Assembly (NCBI GenBank): GCA_029246385.1
Contig: JAQWNG010000015.1
Coordinates: 372,001-436,000, forward strand
Source: Halioglobus sp.
Lineage (GTDB): Bacteria > Pseudomonadota > Gammaproteobacteria > Pseudomonadales > Halieaceae
Direction: 5' to 3'
Length of the DNA stretch: 64,000 nt
Position numbers and translations under genes: made by a program. Within the stretch, counting starts at the first letter, position 1. The number at the start of each line of letters is the position of its first letter. Below are positions 57,439-59,105 of this stretch, one piece after another. Under the pieces are notes generated by a model that saw only the letters and a program-made list of their open reading frames with translations, had not been told where the DNA came from and did no database searches.

Positions 57439-58038
57439 CTAGCATGCTGACAGTATTTTTTTTACCGGCGCAAAGCTGCGGCGATGAACCGGCGTCACGC
57501 CGAGGGTCTTGAGAGCCTGCAAATGCATTGCTGTAGGGTAGCCTTTGTGGGCAGCAAACCCATAGCCTGGATACACACTGTCCAGATCAACCAGCGCATT
57601 GTCTCTGTGTACTTTGGCCAAAATTGAGGCCGCCGCAATCTCCGGCACTCTGTCGTCTCCTCCGACGACTGCTTCTGCGGCATAGTGCCAATGGGGCAGC
57701 CGATTACCATCGACTAGAACATAGGCAGGCTGAGGCTGGAGCGCCTGAACTGCACGATGCATGGCTAAGAGAGAAGCCTGCAGGATATTCAACTCATCGA
57801 TTTCGGCCACACTGGCACTAGCAACCGACCAAGCCAAAGCACGCGATCTGATCAACTGGGCCAACTCCTCCCTGCGTGCCGCGGTAAGTTTCTTTGAGTC
57901 ACGCAGCCCCTCTATTGGCTGTTGCGGGTTCAGCATTACGGCAGCTGCGACCACGTCACCGGCCAGTGGCCCACGACCCACTTCGTCCACGCCAGCCATC
58001 GCGGTTCCTTTGTAAGTGCTTGCAAAAAAATCTTTCAT
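57439..58038 (-). CDS. rnhB: Ribonuclease HII
   Basis: Removes ribonucleotides embedded in DNA and RNA primers. The active-site Asp-Glu pair is D18-E19 in GVDEVGRGPLAG, followed by RDSKKL and an EIAAASILAKVHRD stretch. 199 residues; an internal ATG at 57999 with AAAGGAA would give 186. Between it and fabZ (38-base gap) lpxA and lpxB are expected but absent. Confidence 0.96.
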   Translation of the reverse strand: MKDFFASTYKGTAMAGVDEVGRGPLAGDVVAAAVMLNPQQPIEGLRDSKKLTAARREELAQLIRSRALAWSVASASVAEIDELNILQASLLAMHRAVQALQPQPAYVLVDGNRLPHWHYAAEAVVGGDDRVPEIAAASILAKVHRDNALVDLDSVYPGYGFAAHKGYPTAMHLQALKTLGVTPVHRRSFAPVKKILSAC

Positions 58039-58076
58039 CCCGACTCGCGCACGACCTGGCTACCTGTCATATCGCA

Positions 58077-58508
58077 CTAGCGATCGGCGCAGAGTATGAC
58101 GGCGCTAGCAGCCAGCTCACCCTCTACGTCGGAACTTACATCGAACTTCCAAACTCCCCGACGCTGTGAAATAACCGTAGCACGCAACATCACCCGATCT
58201 CCAGGAACACAGGGTCGTTTAAAGCGAAGCTTATCGGCGCCGGCAAAATAGTACATCGACCCGGCTTCGTTGGTCTTGCCTTGACTATAAAAGCCCAAGA
58301 TTCCAGCCGCCTGGGCCATCGCCTCGAGCAATAATACACCGGGAAATATAGGATTCTCTGGAAAGTGCCCTTCAAAATAAGGCTCGTTGATACTGAGGTT
58401 CTTATAAGCAACGATAAATTCACCGGCTTTGAGCTCCGCTACACGATCCACCAACAAAAAAGGCGACCGATGCGGCAGATGCCTGCGAATATCTATAATA
58501 TCCATCAT
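58077..58508 (-). CDS. fabZ: 3-hydroxyacyl-ACP dehydratase FabZ
   Basis: Dehydrates 3-hydroxyacyl-ACP in fatty-acid synthesis. From ATG 58508 it has 143 residues with the catalytic His in HFPENPIFPG and the Glu in LLLEAMAQAAG; an upstream ATG (58529) would add 7. It is the only survivor of the lpxD-fabZ-lpxA-lpxB group usual here; skp precedes it directly. Confidence 0.96.
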   Translation of the reverse strand: MMDIIDIRRHLPHRSPFLLVDRVAELKAGEFIVAYKNLSINEPYFEGHFPENPIFPGVLLLEAMAQAAGILGFYSQGKTNEAGSMYYFAGADKLRFKRPCVPGDRVMLRATVISQRRGVWKFDVSSDVEGELAASAVILCADR

Positions 58509-58574
58509 GTTGAGTATAGCGCCGGTCACTATCGGATCTAATTGATGCCGCAGTGAATCCGGCGCGAGCGCCCG

Positions 58575-59105
58575 TTATTTCAAAGAGAGTTGGTTCAACT
58601 TATCTGTTAGCTGCGCAGTGATACTGTAGCTGGGCTCAGCATGAATGACTGCATTACGCTGCAGCAAAAGACCAATACCATCTTTCTCAATAATCTCGCG
58701 CAAGACTTCTTGCACCTTTGGCGCCATCTGTTCCAAAAGTGCCTGCCCAGCCGACTGTTCAGCCTGCTGTAACTTCCCCGTTACATGCTCAAGATCGTCT
58801 TGCATGCTGCTCAGCTGCTTCTGAGCCGCTACCTTCTGATCCTGGCTCATAACCGCCGCATCTTTTTGGAACTTCTTGAGCAACGCTTCACCCTCAGCTT
58901 GAAGTTTCTCATACTCTGCTTTGTTTTTCTTAAACTCTTCCCCGCTCCTTACTTCATCGACACGTTGCTGAGCAAAATCCGTTTGCAGAATAGCCCCTTG
59001 CACATCAACCACCGCTATCTTGCCTTGAGCCCAACCAAGAGACGCAATAGAAAACGTCAGCGCCGCAAGTGAAATCTTAAATAATCTAGACACATTCTTC
59101 TCCAA
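58575..59105 (-). CDS. skp: Periplasmic chaperone Skp/OmpH
   Basis: 176 residues with a signal peptide (about 1-26), the short body strand KIAVVDVQGAI and long coiled-coil tentacle arms rich in Lys/Gln/Glu. It escorts unfolded outer-membrane proteins to BamA. It is 17 bases after bamA. The next gene downstream is fabZ, where lpxD is normally found. Confidence 0.93.
   Translation of the reverse strand: MEKNVSRLFKISLAALTFSIASLGWAQGKIAVVDVQGAILQTDFAQQRVDEVRSGEEFKKNKAEYEKLQAEGEALLKKFQKDAAVMSQDQKVAAQKQLSSMQDDLEHVTGKLQQAEQSAGQALLEQMAPKVQEVLREIIEKDGIGLLLQRNAVIHAEPSYSITAQLTDKLNQLSLK

Follow-up and report, generated by a model that had tools for sequence, protein, structure and literature searches.

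To our knowledge, lipid A is generally held to be essential in Gammaproteobacteria. The present analysis concerns a stretch of 64,000 nucleotides from Halioglobus sp. (family Halieaceae; contig JAQWNG010000015.1, positions 372,001 to 436,000), hereafter called the window, in which the lipid A genes lpxD, lpxA and lpxB are missing around fabZ, and a sphingolipid locus of the same family whose product probably takes the place of lipid A. For the Gammaproteobacteria examined among 61 bacterial genomes, the available part of the paper of Opiyo et al. (PMC3087551) describes the pathway as present, with the exception of lpxM in some cases. The closest described systems are treated in one study (PMC11324152), whose available sections do not name the Halieaceae. 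According to these sections, Sphingomonas koreensis lives without lipopolysaccharide (LPS) and sphingolipid synthesis is essential in this species. Among described loci, CC_1168-CC_1152 of Caulobacter crescentus comes closest; it comprises spt with a gene for an acyl carrier protein (ACP), a nucleotidyltransferase gene and ceramide kinase genes, the acyltransferase being encoded in another operon; the region also carries LptC2, LptF2 and LptG2 as well as a gene for a potential flippase (PMC11324152). Among the Gammaproteobacteria, Azotobacter vinelandii and Pseudomonas luteola possess a contiguous CC_1168-like cluster, for which the same sections report no orthologue of CC_1166 (flippase) and do not mention a loss of lipid A. 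In the Betaproteobacteria, Nitrosomonas europaea was found to have a single one of nine lipid A genes, lpxK (PMC3087551, available part), and Nitrosomonas eutropha has a sphingolipid cluster (PMC11324152, available part), perhaps a parallel replacement pieced together from two species and two papers.

For the Halieaceae we propose, with a probability of about 0.73, that lipid A has been replaced by a decorated sphingolipid that is exported over the Lpt bridge. Like the sphingomonads, the Halieaceae with the sphingolipid locus encode a serine palmitoyltransferase (SPT) with best matches to solved serine palmitoyltransferases, which we take to come from Sphingomonas, and they share with Caulobacter a second LptF/LptG pair. 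Unlike the sphingomonads, they belong to the Gammaproteobacteria, the loss is recurrent within one family, and lipid A-bearing sisters already hold the locus. Whereas the genes are scattered in the Sphingomonadales (PMC11324152, available part), the Halieaceae locus is compact and includes sulfotransferase and ELM1 genes. Caulobacter makes both LPS and sphingolipids, in contrast to the Halieaceae without lpx genes, and a comparison of the two loci by description indicated that the Halieaceae locus additionally contains MurA, sulfotransferases, ELM1 proteins, a 2-oxoglutarate (2OG)-Fe(II) oxygenase and the family cl7. The LPS-free state of sphingomonads and the Caulobacter-type locus were known, whereas the occurrence in Gammaproteobacteria is new, together with the recurrence, the intermediate states and the enlargement of the locus; among the matches listed by a literature search with thin coverage of subscription journals, no title dealt with a loss of lipid A, or with sphingolipids, in this family. 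The comparison of close relatives makes the switch of the outer-leaflet lipid testable, with Pseudohaliea rubra DSM 19751 as a deposited strain without lipid A genes, and provides a system for testing the carriage of sphingolipids by Lpt, a point that the available part of PMC11324152 calls not known.

Loss of lipid A genes in Halieaceae

The genome containing the window (G000; G and L numbers denote genomes and loci of this analysis) comprises 3.32 Mb in 45 contigs and is 99.99% complete. Profile searches at an E value of 0.001 yielded no match to LpxC, WaaA, LpxB or LpxA in this genome, and the LpxD model detected weak hexapeptide-type matches alone, the best of which reached 38.7 bits where the cut-off is 242.5; measured against the LPS-free, sphingolipid-bearing outer membrane of the sphingomonad type, the Kdo2-lipid A genes found to be absent are those of LpxA, LpxB, LpxC, LpxD and WaaA (Kdo, 3-deoxy-D-manno-octulosonic acid). 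Additionally, tblastn around ftsZ revealed a clean junction without lpxC, ftsZ being followed by an M23 peptidase gene, and queries from Haliea salexigens (L030) detected no lpxD, lpxA or lpxB in the window, in agreement with an earlier note on this DNA. The short spacers on both sides of fabZ and the order of the neighbouring genes described there were confirmed on the minus strand (Table 1), as was the retention of fabZ and kdsA, both of which score above their family cut-offs. The note had proposed a genome-wide lookup of lpxA, lpxB, lpxC, lpxD and waaA and had left two options, either a relocation of the genes or an LPS-free or altered surface. Simple relocation of lpxA, lpxB and lpxD is ruled out, since the lookup returned nothing beyond the sub-cut-off LpxD matches and five genes are missing from an almost complete genome, and the second option stands. 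The lipid A pathway is almost certainly absent from the genome of the window.

A comparison of 20 genomes demonstrated that LpxA, LpxB, LpxD (at cut-off) and WaaA are all absent from ten (G000, G001, G004, G005, G007, G009, G016, G022, G031 and G037) and all present in nine. Haliea salexigens DSM 19537 is among the strains in which LpxA, LpxB, LpxC, LpxD and WaaA were detected. In G014, LpxA, LpxB and LpxD were found and WaaA, LpxC and FtsZ were not, FtsZ being detected in the other 19 genomes. The interpretation of G014 as an intermediate was rejected, as an assembly without FtsZ has a gap at the neighbour of lpxC and its sphingolipid locus groups with those of LpxC-bearing species; the main count is given with and without this genome. 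By tblastn, each of the nine lpx-bearing genomes has lpxC next after ftsZ, and the ten lpx-less ones all lack it at this place. An M23 peptidase gene, assigned to this family on the basis of the G000 protein, lies directly behind ftsZ in nine of the ten lpx-less genomes and begins behind lpxC in seven of the nine lpx-bearing genomes, the LpxC proteins of G040 and G041 being confirmed by model scan; neither lpxC nor the peptidase gene was found within 1.3 kb behind ftsZ in G037. Within the genus of the window, 15 of 18 genomes, including G000 and G014, yielded no LpxC. The removal of lpxC is as precise as that of the genes around fabZ, the loss recurs across lineages, and lptD and lptFG were spared, which upholds the view of the earlier note that the losses are selective.

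The BamA protein of the window led to 51 named loci, most of which are titled as or group with Halieaceae (OM60/NOR5 clade). The nearest full-length match (96% identical) belongs to L009 from a 'Haliea sp.' bin, and the BamA of 'Halioglobus japonicus isolate BC5_1', treated as a Marimicrobium species in the available part of PMC10100682, is 81% identical to that of the window. The genes lpxD, lpxA and lpxB are also absent at the junctions of the separately assembled loci L009, L010, L011, L012, L013 and L054 and at those of P. rubra DSM 19751 (L033) and Litorirhabdus singularis IMCC14734 (L037), both of which are only distantly related to the window; in L016 the skp-fabZ junction likewise lacks lpxD and the contig ends inside fabZ. 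An assembly error at positions 58038-58575, considered in the earlier note as an objection, is excluded by identical junctions in independent assemblies, including those of the two cultured strains. A tree was calculated from the 38 loci with RseP, BamA, Skp and FabZ all in view (RseP, BamA, Skp, FabZ, RnhB and DnaE; 2993 columns; quick search under LG+G4), of which 29 carry lpxD between skp and fabZ and nine do not. This tree requires three changes of the trait, and a tree forcing the nine lpx-less loci into one clade was rejected (approximately unbiased test, p 2e-7). Such changes alone fit either loss or gain; loss is the simple reading because the lpx-bearing relatives share the gene order.

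In a set of 140 Halieaceae genomes, LpxC was found in 107 and not in 33, some of which are incomplete and 13 of which were deduced by subtraction from the genomes with a match. SPT exceeded the NF047599 cut-off in 41 genomes, with weaker matches to SPT-related enzymes, seen in most genomes, excluded from the count. Cross-reading of both markers yielded 26 genomes with SPT and without LpxC, 7 with neither, 15 with both and 92 with LpxC and without SPT. The seven genomes with neither marker (G049, G111, G121, G128, G129, G136 and G146) are 54-83% complete and were not accepted as losses, though kept in the counts. The corresponding numbers for the 78 genomes with at least 90% completeness and at most 5% contamination are 18, 0, 12 and 48, so that SPT occurs in 18/18 well-assembled Halieaceae without detected LpxC versus 12/60 with LpxC.

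The search was extended to 391 genomes of the order, chosen at a completeness of at least 90%. LpxC was not found in nine of them, namely G000 and G157 of the Halieaceae, G031, G222, G246 and G269 of a single genus in family f9, and G284, G346 and G397 elsewhere. SPT, then looked for in 75 genomes of the order (E up to 1e-120), was present in all five genomes of the f9 genus (the four LpxC-less ones and the LpxC-bearing G194) and in P. rubra (G037), and absent from the other 69; outside the Halieaceae it was detected in four of seven LpxC-less and one of 67 LpxC-bearing genomes tested. The trait has changed at least three times in the Halieaceae and once more in f9, and marine gammaproteobacteria appear to have lost lipid A several times, with living intermediates. 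At a completeness of 97%, G284 could have lost lipid A by a different path, or its assembly may contain a gap.

The sphingolipid locus and the retained Lpt machinery

The genetic composition of the locus was deduced from 46 SPT loci, 29 of which belong to LpxC-less genomes. The conserved order is LptF2-LptG2-ABC-(ELM1)-ACP-SPT-MurA-metallophosphoesterase-(nucleotidyltransferase)-(GNAT protein), where ABC stands for an ATP-binding cassette protein and brackets mark the opposite strand. Further ELM1 proteins, which are presumably glycosyltransferase-like, up to three PF00685 sulfotransferases, the 2OG-Fe(II) oxygenase and family cl7 are encoded upstream. The genes lptF2 and lptG2 stand beside spt in 22 of the 29 LpxC-less loci and the ABC gene is present in 26, the remaining loci reaching the contig end first in either case; lptFG is also located inside the locus in the LpxC-bearing genomes G012, G013, G015 and G018. 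The SPT of G000 scored about 584.9 bits (cut-off 500), and the best solved relative of the locus enzyme is the serine palmitoyltransferase 2x8u (E 9.7e-118); the GTFSKS stretch kept in the locus SPT is taken to be the site of the lysine that binds pyridoxal phosphate. An open reading frame of 80 residues directly before spt, read in eight loci and detected by tblastn beside SPT in 46/46, probably encodes an ACP, judging from its look and place. The candidate ceramide synthase gave a weak GNAT match (PF00583) of 23.9 bits in the G000 protein (cut-off 20.7) and none in its G022 counterpart.

The LptF2, LptG2 and ABC genes together form a Caulobacter-type transport set, in which the ABC protein, an exporter, may act as flippase. 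The best NCBIfam model for the G022 protein is HepA with 284.1 bits, the MsbA model yields 259.5 bits (cut-off 602), and both scores are far under the cut-offs. AasR, CerR and a second LptC were not recognised in the locus stretches read, no search for AasR or CerR having been made. The locus families cl7, cl14 and cl16 had no Pfam match, and sequence searches of the PDB with the cl7 profile and the candidate ceramide synthase returned nothing usable, those with the metallophosphoesterase weak nuclease matches only. The cl7 proteins (L116:5323-6270 and relatives) comprise about 315 residues, are 69% identical between Litorirhabdus and f9, and contain an invariant DPD stretch, which suggests a possibly unnamed glycosyltransferase family. 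A full-length MurA is encoded between SPT and the phosphoesterase in most Halieaceae loci (L113:3105-4355 and relatives); of the 46 loci, the five of f9 and those of G023, G051 and G083 showed no MurA. A tree of the locus (46 rows; SPT, MurA, phosphoesterase and nucleotidyltransferase) agrees with the genera for the most part and implies six changes of the LpxC state when G014 is left out, one of which rests on G075 (71% complete).

The distribution of LptFG pairs can be arranged into stages of replacement. Lipid A genes are accompanied by LptF1G1 in G019, G040 and G041, by both pairs in G023 and by LptF2G2 only in G012, G013, G015 and G018, and G020 combines LptF2G2 with a third type. LptF2G2 alone, in the absence of lipid A genes, characterises G000, G004, G005, G007, G009, G016, G022, G031 and G037, a state found in most of the window's clade, in Pseudohaliea, in Litorirhabdus and in f9; G001 is the sole one of the ten lpx-less genomes with an extra pair of the third type. 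This divergent third type (L196, G001:C11:22000-38000; L197, G020:C6:204000-218724) is 28-33% identical to LptF2G2, and in G001 roughly 4 kb containing other genes separate its LptF and LptG genes. The f9 genus offers a further contrast: in the 19.5 kb read for the LpxC-bearing G194, SPT, LptF2 and LptG2 are present without ABC, ELMb, cl7 or a sulfotransferase, whereas ABC, ELMb and cl7 are present in all four LpxC-less sisters and the sulfotransferase in three of them (G031 and G222 being near-copies). This single contrast, which is no proof, points to the ABC, ELMb, cl7 and sulfotransferase genes as those that make lipid A dispensable. A tentative extension, to which we give somewhat less than even odds, is that the locus represents a self-contained LPS-replacement cassette that makes a sulfated glyco-sphingolipid, brings its own transporter and LptFG, and lets a lineage delete lipid A.

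The earlier note had also suggested a lookup of lptD, which turned out to be kept. LptD was identified in 29 of 31 rows, or in 26 of 27 genomes, G000 among them, after the collapse of repeats (G022/G038, G018/G042 and G015/G043 with identical places, and G001/G039 taken as one), the miss being G001 (93% complete). The LptD frame of G000 extends over 819 residues without a stop and precedes frames for a SurA-like protein and PdxA, an arrangement shared with HTCC2148; the SurA-like protein scored 329.3 bits, under the SurA cut-off of 394, while PdxA, ValS, leucyl aminopeptidase and two LpxC proteins were named by model scan. LptF and LptG were found in all 20 genomes. In HTCC2148 (L121) lptFG adjoins the leucyl aminopeptidase gene and valS, and in Haliea salexigens (L122) this valS cluster likewise stands next to it.

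Proposed replacement of lipid A and competing explanations

In the proposed route, SPT, assigned by homology, would make the sphingoid base with its own ACP of 80 residues, and the GNAT-type protein would N-acylate this base. The resulting ceramide-based lipid might be decorated with sugar and sulfate by the ELM1-family proteins, cl7 and the PF00685 sulfotransferases, and flipped by the ABC protein, which is of MsbA-like build. LptF2 and LptG2 of the locus would then load the decorated lipid on the Lpt bridge and LptD would deliver it to the outer leaflet; we infer both the chemistry and the transport. According to this proposal, the possession of a separate LptFG pair and transporter in the locus made lipid A dispensable, and lpxC, lpxD, lpxA, lpxB and waaA were deleted on more than one occasion.

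The notion that lipid A genes are situated elsewhere, or are masked by incomplete or wrong assembly, has next to no probability left: many relatives are indeed draft or metagenome assemblies, and G014, with LpxC and FtsZ both missing and LpxA, LpxB and LpxD found, shows the trap, but the completeness of G000 without the five genes already refutes it for the window's genome, and clean skp-fabZ, fabZ-rnhB and post-ftsZ junctions recur in separate assemblies, two of them from cultured strains. A different glycolipid without lipid A, for instance a Kdo-linked lipid of the capsule type, might instead occupy the outer leaflet with the sphingolipid locus as a mere companion. The retention of kdsA, though WaaA was not found, and the locus families cl7, cl14 and cl16 without Pfam match would agree with this unlikely explanation, but all well-assembled LpxC-less Halieaceae carry SPT, and lptFG and the ABC gene lie inside the LpxC-less sphingolipid loci wherever the contig reaches. 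Less probable still, and by a clear step, is an outer leaflet of phospholipids alone with the Lpt genes as relics. Acinetobacter baumannii ATCC 19606 does grow without LpxC and lipid A (PMC5555675, available part), but unused genes should decay, and the frames of LptD and LptF/G are uninterrupted in lineages that lost lipid A separately.

Several points weigh against a replacement by an exported sphingolipid. The replacement lipid is predicted from the genes, and the ABC protein passes no cut-off among the models shown, with HepA rather than MsbA as the best model. The SPT locus is not sufficient for the loss, as 15 of the 41 SPT-bearing Halieaceae have LpxC, and, of the nine genomes of the order sample without LpxC, three (G284, G346 and G397) contain no SPT of the locus type. 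The Fisher tests on the well-assembled Halieaceae (p 4e-10, or 1e-9 without G014) do not correct for shared descent, and two of the genomes, G031 and G222, are near-copies of each other. The cultured P. rubra (G037), which belongs to the set with SPT and without lipid A genes, provides two further points. 3-Hydroxy fatty acids are usual in lipid A. The hydroxy fatty acids of P. rubra above trace are 12:1 3OH (2.4%) and 12:0 2OH (1.0%), whereas 10:0 3OH is shown for the five other table columns and not for P. rubra (Spring et al. 2013, PMC3679898, available part, with the column order of the table taken from the species descriptions). Since a 3-hydroxy acid persists, another carrier must be assumed, and neither a Gram-negative description nor 3-hydroxy fatty acids need imply LPS. 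According to the available part of the same paper, resistance to polymyxin B and colistin was recorded for P. rubra, and sensitivity to polymyxin B for the three phototrophs compared with it, one value being from older literature. This resistance fits the loss of lipid A and is not decisive, because Caulobacter mutants deficient in sphingolipids are more resistant to polymyxin B (PMC11324152, available part).

Gene order in the window

The features of the window are compiled in Table 1. The skp gene scored under the cut-off of its model and was assigned from gene order and likeness to skp of the relatives. The fabZ model score was taken on the frame from 58529, and the ATG at 58508 agrees with the start in L009.

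Table 1. Features of the window around the lipid A gene sites, with model scores and cut-offs
Feature	Positions	Strand	Evidence or remark
rseP	63154-61799	minus	TIGR00054, 402.7 bits (cut-off 147.55)
bamA, query for named relatives	61732-59123	minus	TIGR03303, 824.7 bits (cut-off 297.15)
skp, periplasmic chaperone	59105-58575	minus	NF008047, 38.8 bits (cut-off 237)
skp-fabZ junction, 66 bases	58509-58574	minus	lpxD site in lipid A-making relatives
fabZ, 3-hydroxyacyl-ACP dehydratase	58508 (ATG) to 58077	minus	TIGR01750, 174.9 bits (cut-off 155.15)
fabZ-rnhB junction, 38 bases	58039-58076	minus	lpxA and lpxB site in relatives
rnhB, ribonuclease HII	58038-57439	minus	NF000596, 289.7 bits (cut-off 251)
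dnaE	57400-53903	minus	NF004226, 1528.4 bits (cut-off 1002)
kdsA, Kdo-8-phosphate synthase, intact	12377-13228	minus	NF009109, 503.1 bits (cut-off 457)

With kdsA intact in a genome in which WaaA was not found, Kdo might be used for a different surface glycan; alternatively, kdsA is possibly a relic.
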